From positions 1 to 17,970 of the forward strand of contig JAQICW010000605.1 of the NCBI GenBank assembly GCA_027858355.1: 17,970 nucleotides of DNA, written 5' to 3'. The notes beneath the pieces are model-generated. The model saw only the letters and a list, made by a program, of their open reading frames with translations, did no database searches and was not told the origin of the DNA. Made by a program: the position numbers and the translations under genes. Positions 1,930 through 17,622 of the stretch are shown piece after piece; the stretch's first letter is position 1, and each line of letters begins with the position of its first letter. Source of the DNA: Desulfobacula sp. (GTDB taxonomy: Bacteria; Desulfobacterota; Desulfobacteria; Desulfobacterales; Desulfobacteraceae).

Positions 1930-2505
1930 ATGACTTATCTAAAGATGTTTGCGCCTGGGGATGACCCTAAGATGGACCAGATCAACCAGGAAATGGAAGG
2001 ACTGTTTGGCGGTATGGTGCCTAAAGTTTTTACTGCCATGAACCTTCGCACCGATCTTCTGCAAACTATTGTGCAATATGTAAGGCAGTTAATGATAGAA
2101 GATCATGAGCATAGTCGGCTCACCAAAGAACTTTTGGCTGCCTATGTTTCTAAATTAAACAGCTGCGCCTACTGACTGGACGCTCATGGGGCCATGGTCA
2201 TGGCCCAGGGGCAACTTAGCCGGGAACAGATGCAAAGCATTCTGGATGACCCGGAAGGCTCTAATCTCATTGATGAAAAAACCAAAGGCCTGTTACAGCT
2301 GGCCGCCAAGATGACCCAAGAATCACATAAAATAATTCCTGAAGACATCAAGGCCCTTCGTAATTTAGGCATATCAGATGAGATGATACTTGAGAGTATC
2401 CACGTTATTGCCTTTTTCAACTATCTGGATCGAATGGCCGATGCCATTGGCGCGCCGCTGGAAAATCTTCAGGAAATGGTGGCTAAGATGGCTCAAGAAC
2501 AATAA
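1930..2505 (+). CDS. AhpD/CMD-family peroxidase-related selenoprotein with in-frame TGA (Sec) at codon 82
   Basis: Read through the TGA at 2173-2175, this is one 191-residue protein of the AhpD-like carboxymuconolactone decarboxylase superfamily. The core is E67, twelve residues on C79-A-Y-U82, then L-D-A-H86. This matches the AhpD pattern Glu...Cys-x-x-Cys-x3-His with the second Cys replaced by TGA. The part after the TGA stays in frame and is family-typical to its end (AFFNYLDRMADAIGAP), close to the peroxidase-related group. AhpD proteins reduce peroxides or relay electrons through the CxxC pair; Sec at the His-proximal position should make it more reactive. A hairpin with a GGTC loop sits about 20 bases past the TGA, as a bacterial SECIS requires. 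The start at 1930 has AAGGAG 8 bases upstream. Gene finders will call a truncated 81-aa ORF plus a separate ORF from 2194. The second ATG has no Shine-Dalgarno site and lies in the hairpin stem. No selenocysteine machinery lies in this window. Confidence 0.9.
2182..2212 (+). promoter_or_regulatory. Bacterial-type SECIS hairpin
   Basis: A perfect 7-bp stem, GGGCCAT (2189-2195) with ATGGCCC (2200-2206), closes a GGTC tetraloop (2196-2199). A lower stem GCTC/GGGC (2182-2185 with 2209-2212, one T-G wobble) is possible across a small internal loop. The loop begins 21 bases after the TGA at 2173-2175. From memory, the E. coli fdhF SECIS also presents GGUC in its apical loop at nearly this distance, where SelB binds. 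It lies inside the coding sequence, as bacterial SECIS elements do. Confidence 0.8.
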
Positions 2506-11008: not shown

Positions 11009-11321
11009 TGATTGTATTCTCCTTAAAATATGATAATATTTATCTCTTTTCTTAAGCCAATTAGCTTCAACACATTTTCTCATTAAAAAACGTGCCCTGT
11101 GGAGGATCACCCATAAATCAATTAGTCGGGGTGATAGTTAAAACCTTACAAATAGCTTGAGTATTTTTATCTTTTCCCGATGAGATTTCTTTGAAATGTG
11201 CTTTTGCCTGCACAGCAGTTGCCAGGGTGTTTATTAAATTTTAATGTAAGGTATGGTGTCTTGAGACGACATAGTAATCACATATAGAAATAATAGGATT
11301 TATTAATTGAGGAGCGATTTT
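11009..11321. other. Divergent intergenic region between mscS-like and TVP38 genes
   Basis: About 310 bases separate the two divergent starts. It contains the candidate promoter at 11261-11288 and the ribosome sites of both genes. I see no convincing coding frame, RNA gene or strong hairpin in it. Confidence 0.5.
11261..11288 (+). promoter_or_regulatory. Candidate sigma70 promoter of the TVP38-DUF547-flavoprotein operon
   Basis: TTGAGA (11261-11266, five of six) and TATAGA (11283-11288, four of six) are separated by 16 bases and lie 33 bases before the ATG at 11322. This is the best match in the divergent gap, but it is not verified. Confidence 0.4.
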
Positions 11322-12008
11322 ATGAAAACAGATTTATCTAAATTTATTATTGCGGGAGTCCTTATAGCGGTCATTGTTTTATTTTTTGTGTTTGATATGA
11401 AACAATATTTCGCCCTGGAATATATCAAGGCCCAGCAGGATGCCTTAAATGTTTATTATCAGAACAACACCCTGTTAACCATTGCTGTTTATATGCTCAT
11501 TTACAGTGTTGTTACCGCCCTTTCCCTGCCGGGTGCCGCAGTCATGACCCTGGTGGGTGGAGGACTTTTCGGTTTGCTGGTCGGCACTGTGGTGGTATCC
11601 TTTGCCAGCACCATTGGTGCTACACTGGCCTTTATTGTATCCCGGTTGCTCTTACGCGACTGGGTACAGACAAAATTTGGTGATAAATTACAAGCCATCA
11701 ATGACGGGATTGAAGCAGACGGGGCCTTTTACCTGTTTACTCTGCGGCTTGTGCCGGCTTTCCCCTTTTTCATCATCAACCTGGTTATGGGTTTGACACC
11801 CATCAAGACCATCCAGTTTTACCTGGCAAGCCAGATTGGCATGCTGGCAGGGACAATTGTTTACGTCAATGCGGGTACACAATTGAGTAAAATCGATTCC
11901 CTCAAGGGGATTTTATCTCCCGGATTGCTGATATCATTTATACTCCTGGGTATTTTCCCTATCCTGGCTAAAAAAGGGCTTAAAATTATTAAAAGAAAAA
12001 AAGGATAG
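11322..12008 (+). CDS. TVP38/TMEM64 (DedA-like/VTT domain) membrane protein
   Basis: I start this 228-residue integral membrane protein at ATG 11322, with GAGGAG 8 bases upstream; a TTG start at 11307 would swallow that ribosome site. An N-terminal helix (8-25) is followed by the VTT/SNARE-associated domain: ALSLPGAAVMTLVGGGLFG (66-84), a Gly/Ser-rich helix, then LRLVPAFPFFIINLVMGLTPI (141-161), with the family's Arg-Pro-Phe-Pro and Asn-Gly positions. VTT-domain proteins have re-entrant helices and are linked to lipid scrambling or ion/proton-coupled transport; the substrate here is unknown. It is the first gene of a tight operon, with the DUF547 gene starting 3 bases after its stop. Its partnership with the flavoprotein reductase two genes on suggests a membrane redox role. 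Confidence 0.9.
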   Translation: MKTDLSKFIIAGVLIAVIVLFFVFDMKQYFALEYIKAQQDALNVYYQNNTLLTIAVYMLIYSVVTALSLPGAAVMTLVGGGLFGLLVGTVVVSFASTIGATLAFIVSRLLLRDWVQTKFGDKLQAINDGIEADGAFYLFTLRLVPAFPFFIINLVMGLTPIKTIQFYLASQIGMLAGTIVYVNAGTQLSKIDSLKGILSPGLLISFILLGIFPILAKKGLKIIKRKKG

Positions 12009-12011
12009 TCC

Positions 12012-12818
12012 ATGAAACTATTATCCATTATTTTTACTGCTATCATCCTGTTTAACACCCATGCCTTGGCAGAGTCATTTGATCATAAGCATACTATTTT
12101 AAATGATCTGTTGAAAAAGCATGTAAGCTGGAACCAGGCCAAAACAGCCTCAACCGTCAATTATAAAGGAATTTCAATAGACCGGAAAGCATTAAGAACT
12201 TACCTTGATTCGGTTTCTGCTGTTACCAAGCCGGAATTTACCAAATGGTCAAAAAATCAACAACTGGCTTTTTTAATAAACATATATAATGCCTTTACCA
12301 TCGAATTGATCCTGACAAAATATCCAAACCTGAAATCTATCAAGGATATTGGTTCGTTGTTTAAAAGCCCATGGAAAAAGAATTTTTTTACTCTTTTCGG
12401 GAAGAAAACAAATATAGATGAGATAGAGCACGGTCTTATCCGGCAAAAAGGAGTATACGATGACCCGCGCATACACCTGGCAATAGTGTGTGCTTCCATC
12501 GGCTGTCCAGCTTTGAGAAATGAAGCCTATACCACAGACAAAATAGACGGCCAGTTAGATGACAACATAAAGAGCTTTCTGTCAGATCGTACCCGAAACC
12601 GATACAACACATATACGAAGAAGTTGGAAGTGTCCAAAATATTTGACTGGTATAAGGAAGATTTTAATGCCGGTTATCATGGTATACAATCACTCCCGTT
12701 TTTTTTGGGCCAATATGCCAAGTTGCTGGCAGACAATCCAATCGATCAAGAAAAAATAAAACTGGAGATGGTTGATATCATCTATCTGGATTATGACTGG
12801 AGTTTAAATGACAACTAG
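12012..12818 (+). CDS. Exported DUF547-domain protein
   Basis: This 268-residue protein has a signal peptide (residues 2-20, cleavage after ALA). The DUF547 family is recognisable from AFLINIYNAFTIELILTKYP (about 84-103), IDEIEHGLIRQ, then DPRIHLAIVCASIGCPALRNEAYT and KIFDWYKEDF. The conserved His-Leu-Ala-x-x-Cys-x-x-x-x-Cys-Pro segment is intact. No biochemical function is established to my knowledge; the Cys/His pattern would fit a thiol enzyme, but that is speculation. The start lies 3 bases after the TVP38 stop, and the next gene begins 17 bases after this one ends, so all three are co-transcribed. The product should be periplasmic. Confidence 0.88.
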   Translation: MKLLSIIFTAIILFNTHALAESFDHKHTILNDLLKKHVSWNQAKTASTVNYKGISIDRKALRTYLDSVSAVTKPEFTKWSKNQQLAFLINIYNAFTIELILTKYPNLKSIKDIGSLFKSPWKKNFFTLFGKKTNIDEIEHGLIRQKGVYDDPRIHLAIVCASIGCPALRNEAYTTDKIDGQLDDNIKSFLSDRTRNRYNTYTKKLEVSKIFDWYKEDFNAGYHGIQSLPFFLGQYAKLLADNPIDQEKIKLEMVDIIYLDYDWSLNDN

Positions 12819-12835
12819 TGCAAAAGGAGAGAATC

Positions 12836-14293
12836 ATGAGTAACAACGAATACGATATCGGAGTAATTGGTGGTGGTGCCGCAGGCCTGACAATAGTTTC
12901 GGGTGCGGCCCAGCTTGGCGCCAGGGTCATCCTGATTGAACAGGAAAAAAAATTAGGGGGAGATTGTCTTCACTATGGCTGTGTTCCCAGTAAAACCCTG
13001 ATTAAGTCAGCCCATGTTTACCACCAGATGAAACAATCCCAAAATTACGGATTGCCTAAATTGGATATACCGCCAGTAGATTTCAGGCAAGTGGTAAAAC
13101 GTATCAAATCGGTGATCGATACCATCCAGGTGCATGATTCAGAAGAACGGTTCTGCGGCCTTGGTGCCAAGGTTGTTTTTGGACAGGCCCGATTTATCGA
13201 TACCCATAAAGTCAGTCTTGACGGAAAAATTATCTCTGCTGACAAATGGGTGATTGCCACGGGATCTTCACCGGTAGTACCCCCTATTGAAGGCCTGGCC
13301 GATACGCCACACCTGACCAATAAAGAGATTTTTTACATGGACAAGCTGCCAGCCTCTATGATCATTCTGGGTGCCGGGCCCATTGGTATTGAAATGGGTC
13401 AGGCTTTTAATAGACTTGGAACTCAAGTAACGGTAATTGACCGGGCAGCACAAATATTGGGTAAAGAAGATAAGGACATGGCTGACGGCGTAATGACGGT
13501 TATGTCAAAGGAAGGTGTTCAGTTTCTCCTGGAAGCTGCGATCACCCGGGTCAAAAACCTCAAAGATGCCCGGCAGGTTACCATTGTCGATGCCAATGGC
13601 ACATCACAAGATATAAAAGCTGAAGCCATCCTTGTATCCATGGGCCGTTCTCCCAATGTGGATGGCCTGGGGCTGGATGAAATTGGTATTAAATATGATC
13701 GCCGCGGAATCCAGGTTGACAATCGATTACGGACCAGCCACAAACACATTTATGCAGCCGGAGATGTCAATGGCGGATTCCAGTTTACCCATGCTGCCGG
13801 GTATGAGGGTGGAATTGTTATCAGCAACGCTGTTTTCCGGCTTCCCCGAAAAGTTGACTACACCTGGCTTCCATGGGTCACTTATACCGACCCGGAACTG
13901 GCCAGCATCGGCATGAACGAAACAGCGGCCAAAAAAGCAGGGTTGAAATACACGCTTTATACTGAAGCCTTTAAGGATAATGATCGCTCACTGGCAGAAG
14001 GAGAGATCACAGGGAAAATCAAGTTGCTCTTAGATGAAAAGGAAAAACCCCTGGGGGTCCAGATTTTGGGACCGGGTGCCGGCAATCTGATCAGTGAATG
14101 GGTTGCAGTGTTAAATGGAAACGTAAAATTATCCACTATTGCAGCAGCGATCCATCCCTATCCGACCATGGGTGAAATCAATAAACGGGTTGCGGGTTCC
14201 TATTTGTCTCCCAAAATTTTTTCTAAAACCATACAAAATGGACTTAAATTCTTCTTCAACTTGAAGGGTCGGGCCTGTAATTTGGATGAATAG
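12836..14293 (+). CDS. Pyridine nucleotide-disulfide oxidoreductase, MerA/Lpd-like flavoprotein
   Basis: This 485-residue protein starts at ATG 12836 after AAAGGAGAG; the GTG six codons earlier lies across the ribosome site. It shows FAD binding IGVIGGGAAGL (8-18), the redox disulfide C44-L-H-Y-G-C49 in GGDCLHYGCVPSK, the NAD(P)H Rossmann motif ILGAGPIGIEMGQAF (177-191), the FAD motif IYAAGDVNGG (305-314) and the dimerisation domain. In lipoamide dehydrogenase the C-terminal motif is HAHPT with a catalytic second His; here it is H440-P-Y442-P-T, so Tyr replaces that His, as in mercuric reductase. There is no C-terminal Cys pair and no N-terminal metal-binding domain, so classic mercuric reductase is unlikely. 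The natural acceptor is unknown. Clustering with TVP38 and DUF547 genes suggests a membrane-associated redox role. Confidence 0.9.
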   Translation: MSNNEYDIGVIGGGAAGLTIVSGAAQLGARVILIEQEKKLGGDCLHYGCVPSKTLIKSAHVYHQMKQSQNYGLPKLDIPPVDFRQVVKRIKSVIDTIQVHDSEERFCGLGAKVVFGQARFIDTHKVSLDGKIISADKWVIATGSSPVVPPIEGLADTPHLTNKEIFYMDKLPASMIILGAGPIGIEMGQAFNRLGTQVTVIDRAAQILGKEDKDMADGVMTVMSKEGVQFLLEAAITRVKNLKDARQVTIVDANGTSQDIKAEAILVSMGRSPNVDGLGLDEIGIKYDRRGIQVDNRLRTSHKHIYAAGDVNGGFQFTHAAGYEGGIVISNAVFRLPRKVDYTWLPWVTYTDPELASIGMNETAAKKAGLKYTLYTEAFKDNDRSLAEGEITGKIKLLLDEKEKPLGVQILGPGAGNLISEWVAVLNGNVKLSTIAAAIHPYPTMGEINKRVAGSYLSPKIFSKTIQNGLKFFFNLKGRACNLDE

Positions 14294-15236: not shown

Positions 15237-16030
15237 TTATTGCCCCCTTGAAACAACCTCATTTATGACCTTGCTCAGTTCATCTCTGGTTGTAGGCTTT
15301 GTAAGAGATCCTGTTTCCAGTTTAGCTTCTACATTGATCAACCCTCCATGTTTATTAATTATGGAATAACTGATTGTAAGCCCGAGTCCCTGCCCTTTAT
15401 CAGCCCCCATACCTTTTGTTGAAAAATAGGGATCAAATATTTTTTCAAGGTTTTCACATGATACCGTAAGTTGGCCATTATCATCCATTGCTTCTCTTGC
15501 ATTGACGACTATATTACGGACAACCTTTTTGATCTGACCTTCATCAATATTTACTTGTCTGATGTCATCAATGTTTATTCATTTCTGTGCTGTAATTTTC
15601 AAAAATGGCCTTATCTTGATTCAATGCGACTTTCCCATAATTATTAATCCAAGACTGCTCTGTTTTCTAACTTCACACTATGTGAGTGTTGGTTTTTAAG
15701 AAGCGGGAGTTTTGAGGTGGGAATACCTATATGTAAAGGATTTGAAGAAGCAACAATCATTTCTTTGTGATTCGAAACGGCAATTTCTATTGCATATGGA
15801 TTATTCTTCAAATTTTCAAAATATATTTGCAGGTCTCCATAATCATCATTGATTAAAGCAAACCTGCTAACATCTTTAAGTAAAAAGATCGTAATTGCAT
15901 GCTGTTCTTTAATCTGAGCTTTAATGGATTTAAATGAATTGCTTTGGGTCTGCCATAAAACAAGAGATACCATTAGGAGTTCAAGCACAAAAATAACAAG
16001 AGCGATGCGGTATTTTAATGAGAATATCAT
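15237..16030 (-). pseudogene. Degraded hybrid sensor histidine kinase (multiple deletions and frameshifts)
   Basis: Read along the minus strand from 16030. First comes a signal-anchor helix (LKYRIALVIFVLELLMVSL) and about 100 residues of periplasmic sensor domain, ending at a stop near 15644. A frame change then continues it as SWINNYGKVALNQDKAIFENYS to a TGA at 15570-15568. Next the frame shifts again to a kinase N-box (GQIKKVVRNIVVNAREAMDD). Sequence resembling LTVS is joined directly to ENLEKIFDPYFSTKG, with the DxGxG box missing. After the intact G2 box (GQGLGLTISYSI), ETGS is joined to LTKPTTRDELSKVINEV, the usual C-terminal end of a receiver domain. HAMP/PAS, the phosphoacceptor His domain and most of the receiver are absent. 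It cannot work as a kinase. Its start overlaps the stop of the upstream kinase by four bases, so both were once one operon. Confidence 0.8.
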
Positions 16031-17622
16031 GCAACGGGCAGTTTTATCCGGAACGTTGTTCCCTCTGGACCGAAATCAGCTACATCAATCTCCCCTTTTT
16101 GTTCTTGAATGATTCCATGACTGATGGAAAGCCCCAGCCCTGTACCTTTGCCCACCTCTTTGGTGGTATAAAAAGGATCAAAAATAATATTCAGTGCTTC
16201 CTGGGGTATCCCGCACCCGTTATCCGTGAATAAGATTTCAACCTTTTTTTTATCACCTTCTGAAACATGGGTGGTAATCACGATCTTTTTCTGCAATTGG
16301 GCACCATCTCCCTTGGATTCAAACTTTGATTCTATGGCATCCCGCGCATTGGTGAGCATATTGAGAAAGACCTGCTCCAACTGACTGGCATTTCCCAGAA
16401 CTTTGGGAAGGTCGTTGGAAAGATCCTTTATCACTTTGATATCTCTTAATTTGAGTTGTTCTCCAATCATCAAAAAGGAATCTTGAATGATCCCGTTGAC
16501 ATCCACCGGCGTTAACTCGTTTTTTGATTGGCGGGAAAAAACCCGCAGATGGTTGATGATCTTCATCATGCGCTTGGTGTTTTTTTCGATGGAGTTAAGG
16601 TTTTCCAGCAAGTTGGCAGTATCCAGAGAATTTTTACGCTGTTTTCTCAATGTGAGCTGTGCCGTGCCTCGAATAAGCATCAGGGGTTGATTCAATTCAT
16701 GGGCCACGCCTGCAGCAAGTTCGCCGATGGAGGCCAGTTTCCCTGCCTGGACCAACTGGCTCTGGGTATTTTTTAGGTCCTTGTAGGCCGCTTGCAAGTT
16801 ATCTCCTGCCTTCTTACGTTCGGTAATGTCATGGGCGATACCGCGGAATCCGACTATGTTGCCGTTATAGTCCCTCATCAAGGAAGCAAACAGTTCATGA
16901 AAACCATGGGTTCCATCCTTTTTGATTACTTCATAGTTGGATGTTCTTGCCGGCTTTCCAGTTTTATAGATTTGGTTAAAGAAATTGAGGATTCTCTTGG
17001 CGGATCTCGGAGGCATGTAGTCACGATTATTCATTCCCATTAATTCATCTTGGGAATATCCAAGGATTTTCGACAGTGAATTATTGAAGAAGATAAAGTT
17101 ACCTTTAAGGTCAACCTCAAAGTAGGCTTCTTCTATGCTTTCGAGGATGGTTCGATATTTTTCTTCCGACTCTCGCAACGACGTCTGCACCTGATTGCTT
17201 TTAGAGATTTTCTTTTCGATTATGTTCAGCGAGTGTTCAAGTTCGGTCTTTGTTTGAGCAAGCTGGCTAACGGAAGGTATCCATTTCCAAAAACCAAAAG
17301 CAATAAAAATGAATCCAAGCAGATAGCCGACCAATTTTTCTAAAATGGCTTCGTATTCGGTGTCTCCAATAACTATAAATTTATTTAAGCTTTCAAAATT
17401 ATCAGTAACATCAACCTCCATTCCGAAGAATAGTAGTACAAAGCCAATTATTAAACTATTCCAGCCACGTTTATTATAATTAAGTCCCTTTCTCCCAGAA
17501 ATGTATAAAAAACAAATGATGCTCCCTACAATAACTGCTCGAAAAATTTCTAAAATAATATCAGTCATATTTTTTGTAACAAAATCCCTTGGTGAGGGTT
17601 TTACATAACATGCATTATTCAT
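16027..17622 (-). CDS. Membrane-bound PAS sensor histidine kinase
   Basis: The 531 residues have membrane helices at about 22-42, 54-70 and 95-112, then a coiled region (120-150), a PAS/PAC domain (153-270, ending FRGIAHDITERKK), a HisKA domain with phosphoacceptor H308 in ELAAGVAHELNQPL, and a full HATPase: N-box NMLTNARDAI (421-430), DNGCGIP (467-473), FDPFYTTK and GKGTGLGLSISHGI (491-504). All catalytic boxes are intact. It autophosphorylates on H308 and passes phosphate to an unidentified response regulator; none is nearby, so it is an orphan here. The start at 17622 has only a weak AGAG upstream, and Met19 (17568) is an alternative that removes CYVKPSPRDFVTKN. Its TGA overlaps the ATG of the degraded downstream kinase (ATGA). 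Confidence 0.9.
   Translation of the reverse strand: MNNACYVKPSPRDFVTKNMTDIILEIFRAVIVGSIICFLYISGRKGLNYNKRGWNSLIIGFVLLFFGMEVDVTDNFESLNKFIVIGDTEYEAILEKLVGYLLGFIFIAFGFWKWIPSVSQLAQTKTELEHSLNIIEKKISKSNQVQTSLRESEEKYRTILESIEEAYFEVDLKGNFIFFNNSLSKILGYSQDELMGMNNRDYMPPRSAKRILNFFNQIYKTGKPARTSNYEVIKKDGTHGFHELFASLMRDYNGNIVGFRGIAHDITERKKAGDNLQAAYKDLKNTQSQLVQAGKLASIGELAAGVAHELNQPLMLIRGTAQLTLRKQRKNSLDTANLLENLNSIEKNTKRMMKIINHLRVFSRQSKNELTPVDVNGIIQDSFLMIGEQLKLRDIKVIKDLSNDLPKVLGNASQLEQVFLNMLTNARDAIESKFESKGDGAQLQKKIVITTHVSEGDKKKVEILFTDNGCGIPQEALNIIFDPFYTTKEVGKGTGLGLSISHGIIQEQKGEIDVADFGPEGTTFRIKLPVA

Follow-up and report, generated by a model that had tools for sequence, protein, structure and literature searches.

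The AhpD-like frame and its internal TGA

In the window analysed here (the whole stretch of DNA, 17,970 nucleotides), positions 1930-2505 of the forward strand form a single 191-codon frame that ends at a TAA and contains one internal stop, the TGA at 2173-2175 (codon 82). An earlier note on this DNA had claimed that automated calling splits the gene, and this was confirmed: mechanical ORF calling cut the frame into pieces of 81 aa (1930-2175) and 103 aa (2194-2505), which are restored here as one gene. The gene is solitary, flanked by genes for a protein with HD-GYP-like motifs (recognised by reading its translation) and for a TPR protein. Promoter-like sites (4 found versus 2.2 expected in shuffles) were not used as evidence. 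The features of the locus are:

1916-1921, + strand: AAGGAG, ribosome-binding site, with the ATG 8 nt further on (from the sequence)
1930-2505, + strand: CDS of the 191-residue AhpD-like (TIGR01926) selenoprotein, TAA included (profile matches; relatives preserve the frame before and after the TGA)
2128-2130, + strand: Glu67, proton-relay position (aligned in relatives; role by analogy with the enzymes in the available part of PMC3141380)
2164-2166, + strand: Cys79, presumed resolving residue of the CxxU site (Cys in all loci of the first-scan table; role by analogy)
2173-2175, + strand: TGA, codon 82, read as selenocysteine (TGA or Cys codon in 46/46 aligned loci; TGA in 21/22 subfamily loci)
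2183-2210, + strand: possible lower stem, weak, 2183-2185 pairing with 2208-2210 (73% of cells paired)
2185-2187, + strand: His86, proton-relay position (His in all loci of the first-scan table, Gln in locus L104)
2189-2206, + strand: SECIS-like apical stem-loop GGGCCAU-GGUC-AUGGCCC, loop at 2196-2199 (fixed position in 21 TGA loci; peak of synonymous-codon conservation; pair counts)

The read-through protein passed the cut-offs of NCBIfam TIGR01926, 'peroxidase-related enzyme' (104.6 bits, cut-off 81.8), and of Pfam CMD (42.2, cut-off 23), while the first half by itself gave no CMD match and the second half by itself scored 18.8, under the CMD cut-off. These matches, together with relatives in which the frame runs on intact before and after the TGA, bear out the earlier claim that the downstream frame continues the same family. 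TIGR01926 was also matched at E <= 0.001 by all seven members of one alignment (A3), and its type of active site, E-x11-C-x2-C/U-x3-H, is present in the window protein with Glu67, Cys79, codon 82 and His86 at the positions and spacing given in that note. Among relatives found by sequence, structures are solved for 2pfx, 3c1l and 6k40 and others, and the second Cys of their CxxC aligns with codon 82; the TGA thus lies, as had been proposed, at the second Cys of an AhpD-type CxxC.

The window protein stayed under the cut-offs of other AhpD-related models: it scored 22.1 bits against AhpD proper (TIGR00777, cut-off 191.95, far above this score), 67 bits against NF041238 (AhpD_rel_CFYUT, AhpD-related (seleno)protein, cut-off 175) and 30.8 bits against NF053654 (YciW-related, cut-off 310). 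The last two resemble it in being AhpD-related with a possible Sec form marked by NCBI, and differ in that the window protein falls under both cut-offs. A search of viral contigs found no relatives, and one candidate relative (L003) was dropped, its match being short (34% over about 63 residues).

Codon 82 and the downstream hairpin among relatives

Codon 82 was TGA in 18 and TGC/TGT in 28 of the 46 family loci from kin genomes that aligned there, and nothing else was found; 49 loci were examined, of which three (L086, L091, L094) had no alignment over this codon and were left out. The 28 loci with TGC/TGT provide the homologues with Cys at position 82 that the earlier note had suggested looking for. 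The first scans had found TGA at codon 82 in 7/7 distinct loci with 51-79% identity, one of them (L011) a decayed remnant. In the window's own subfamily, window included, TGA occupies codon 82 in 21 of the 22 loci, the remaining one (L105) having TGC. Identity to the window protein ranges over 49-79% among these loci, and the TGA has therefore been kept over long divergence. The class-level searches gave one match each around G249 (55 genomes) and G396 (41 genomes), both with TGA. At order level, 389 genomes yielded 16 matches spread over 15 genomes; 15 of these matches had TGA, L105 being the exception. Two phylum searches drew nearly identical genomes and are not independent; duplicate loci were excluded from the counts (L107=L009, L112=L001, L008=L001, L043=L002, L097=L014, L098=L015).

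Outside these closer relatives, TGA at codon 82 was also observed in ten distant relatives with 24-31% identity (L022, L038, L040, L042, L084, L085 and L087-L090), whose hairpins and loop positions mostly differ from those of the window; in the tree, nine of them lie outside the window's group and L089 adjoins it on a long branch. One TGA locus (L104, 499-549) has the relay His86 replaced by Gln and Asp84 by Gly.

A stem-loop with a G in a small apical loop soon after the UGA, a trait of bacterial selenoproteins, is present at the window gene. The GGYN loop begins 20 nt past the TGA in 21/21 TGA loci of the subfamily, and the 7-bp stem that closes it is fully paired (G-U allowed) in 18 of the 21, with six of seven pairs formed in the other three (L001, L106, L108). 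Synonymous-codon identity over the hairpin (codons 86-93) was 0.716 compared with 0.455 for the whole gene, ranking first of 181 eight-codon windows in 19 sequences, counted without the remnant L011, the short contig end L113 and the Cys locus L105. Ala88 is GCC in 19/19 of these sequences, and Ala85 is encoded by four codons. One stem pair varied among the 21 loci (C-G 16, G-C 2, U-G 2, unpaired 1), with a covariation score reached by 8 of 500 shuffles, the changes being possibly few events.

Taken alone, the window hairpin does not stand out against shuffles (z -1.6, 13/200 as good). No Rfam family, SECIS included, was matched at gathering score, and a relaxed search gave weak chance matches (best E 0.43-0.44). 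Hairpin energy averaged -11.8 kcal/mol in the 18 TGA loci and -8.3 kcal/mol in the 28 Cys loci (Mann-Whitney p 0.0005), a comparison that ignores relatedness and is indicative only; some Cys loci (e.g. L024, L028) fold as well as TGA loci or better. L105, the Cys member of the subfamily, comes from a genome with selD and has retained a hairpin that resembles the SECIS of its Sec relatives; the presence of the hairpin alone is therefore no proof.

Selenocysteine machinery and the rival readings of codon 82

Genes for selenocysteine insertion scored over the cut-offs in most of the kin genomes searched: selA in 11/11, selB in 38/41 (including all seven with subfamily loci found by then), tRNA-Sec in 6/7 and selD in 20/20, the best selD match of each carrying an internal TGA. 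The selB misses were G285, G257 and G099, and in the first of these there is a distant relative that carries an internal TGA and did not align at codon 82; the tRNA-Sec miss was G071. Among 14 control genomes, those passing the cut-offs numbered two for selB, one for selA, two for selD and five for tRNA-Sec. Of 86 genomes in G001's family, 58 contained a match to the citrate synthase of the window (57-65% identity), which fits a Desulfobacterota-type host. From the machinery in kin and the codon pattern we infer that the window's organism inserts selenocysteine. In the proposed decoding, SelB and tRNA-Sec would place Sec at UGA codon 82, directed by the bacterial-type SECIS hairpin in the CDS just downstream.

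The genome with no tRNA-Sec over the cut-off, G071, is the one that carries the remnant L011 (1504-1695), in which the TGA and the hairpin are still visible; selA, selB and selD were matched there.

Public protein records were surveyed through 123 distinct entries, comprising the 9 matches of a first database search and the best 120 of 388 in a second. Among these listed records, 78 start at about residue 83 or 89, just past the TGA, and therefore come without the N-terminal half and the active-site pair. Position 82 is Cys in 33 and Trp in 11, and the region is missing in one. The Trp records (P0002, P0003, P0018 and eight more) probably arose from gene callers that translated the TGA with table 4, and they are useful as a flag for misread selenoproteins. 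In the subfamily record P0010 roughly residues 59-107 around the TGA are missing, a gap that looks like an intron introduced by a gene caller.

Two readings without selenocysteine were weighed and rejected. The gene could be a broken Cys-type gene, its TGA a nonsense mutation or a sequencing error, and the subfamily does contain one decayed copy, L011; against this, 21 of the 22 subfamily loci have the TGA, and the intact ones preserve the frame before and after it. Since chance breakage would not strike the same codon again and again, nor produce TGA every time, we regard this reading as very improbable. The earlier note's preference for selenocysteine over a nonsense mutation thus stood up, there being no pattern of a conserved stop only: a TGA or a Cys codon, the usual pattern of Sec/Cys pairs, accounts for all 46 aligned loci. 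The other reading has the UGA decoded as Trp, or skipped under another recoding rule, to give a full-length protein without selenium. The 11 listed records with Trp at position 82 speak for it, but relatives carry Cys codons at this position, TGG occurs in no aligned locus, TGA serves other genes of the window as an ordinary stop under table 11, and on the tree the Trp records lie interspersed with Sec rows; we give this reading equally little credence. The selenocysteine reading of TGA codon 82 in the active site is well supported, and the product of the gene is very probably a single AhpD-like protein of 191 residues, belonging to the TIGR01926 family, with UGA codon 82 decoded as Sec, most likely a small thiol/selenol peroxidase or disulfide reductase.

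Known relatives, predicted activity and possible Sec/Cys turnover

AhpD-like CxxU proteins were among the new selenoprotein families of the 2005 Sargasso Sea study (27 sequences, COG2128; available part of PMC1088965), an ocean survey lists AhpD-like 1 and AhpD-like 2, both CxxU (available part of PMC2398784), and a 2026 review, citing the 2005 paper, lists 'AhpD-like protein, TIGR01926, CxxU' (available part of PMC13188914); this review was the sole match of a literature search pairing TIGR01926 with selenoprotein. With both the family and its Sec form already published (2005, 2026), the window gene is a further member of a known selenoprotein family. It shares with the AhpD-like CxxU selenoproteins in the available parts of PMC1088965 and PMC13188914 the TIGR01926 match over cut-off, a CxxU site with Sec second, and a hairpin after the UGA with a G in the apical loop; no important difference was found in this comparison of family model, motif and hairpin, and the window represents a Desulfobacterota-type subfamily.

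Peroxidase or thiol-reductase activity is the most likely function, judged from the family. Cys133 is the peroxidatic residue of AhpD, and by carry-over from that enzyme Sec82 is presumed to be the peroxidatic residue of the window protein. According to the available part of PMC3141380, M. tuberculosis AhpD uses Glu118, Cys130, His132, Cys133 and His137 together with a water, and P. aeruginosa PA0269 uses Glu36, Cys48, Tyr50, Cys51 and His55 in a Cys-Ala-Tyr-Cys site. Both share the Glu-x11-Cys-x2-Cys-x3-His spacing with the window protein, whose residues Glu67, Cys79, Tyr81, Sec82 and His86 are spaced in the same way; they differ in having Cys in place of Sec, so that the site of PA0269 corresponds to Cys-Ala-Tyr-Sec in the window, and AhpD also in the low score of the window protein against its model given above. 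In the mechanism that we propose, with substrate and electron donor inferred, Cys79-Ala-Tyr-Sec82 would be the redox pair, and Glu67 and His86 occupy the same places as their counterparts in the proton relay of AhpD. By analogy the relay would activate Sec82, the substrate would oxidise its selenolate, Cys79 would resolve the oxidised Sec82 into a selenenylsulfide, and a cellular thiol reductant would then reduce this bond.

The same selenoprotein might instead serve mainly as an adaptor or disulfide reductase that passes electrons to another peroxidase, with direct peroxide reduction not its main role. The available part of PMC3141380 presents AhpD as an adaptor whose peroxidase activity is weak, and PA0269 as reducing H2O2 only weakly, which favours such a role; opposed to it, no ahpC-like gene was recognised beside the gene within the window (Pfam for 8 neighbours, other translations read), and the five relay positions (E67, C79, Y81, U82, H86) are all filled. 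We regard the adaptor or disulfide-reductase role as a real possibility, somewhat less likely than not; the sequence fits both this role and direct peroxide reduction.

Sec and Cys forms of the family can be close: one Sec locus is 74% identical to a Cys protein record, and with such pairs one could measure what AhpD-like enzymes gain from selenium. A tree of 45 family members, built without L011, placed the seven subfamily rows, all Sec, in one supported group (98/95), and the Sec label took two changes over it. A further tree of 63 rows took in protein records (31 with Cys, 8 with Trp), L105, additional Sec loci and an outgroup of four rows, with L011 and L113 excluded. On it Sec versus Cys took 10 changes when the Trp records were ignored (at least 5 forced by well-supported branches), 12 when they were treated as Sec (at least 6 of them forced), and one when only DNA-verified rows were used. 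Sec/Cys turnover is a lead and not a result, because every Cys label except that of L105 was taken from a protein record and the tree has several long branches. It may be, and we put this forward tentatively and with some doubt, that the Desulfobacterota-type subfamily has repeatedly swapped Sec and Cys at one active-site position in an otherwise unchanged enzyme, the hairpin of L105 being a fossil of a recent Sec-to-Cys loss. If true, nature would have provided in this subfamily a set of closely matched Sec and Cys forms with which to ask what advantage selenium gives an AhpD-like enzyme.

Elsewhere in the window, the reverse strand carries, past an intact histidine kinase (16027-17622), two pieces at 15237-16030 that resemble a second kinase: an N-terminal sensor (15644-16030) and a C-terminal ATPase end (15237-15488), with the middle missing. 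From reading the translations, this is probably a decayed gene. The forward strand at 11307-14293 holds a run of a VTT-domain protein, a DUF547 protein and a pyridine nucleotide-disulfide oxidoreductase, the last of which retains Cys codons in its GGDCLHYGCVPSK-type site.
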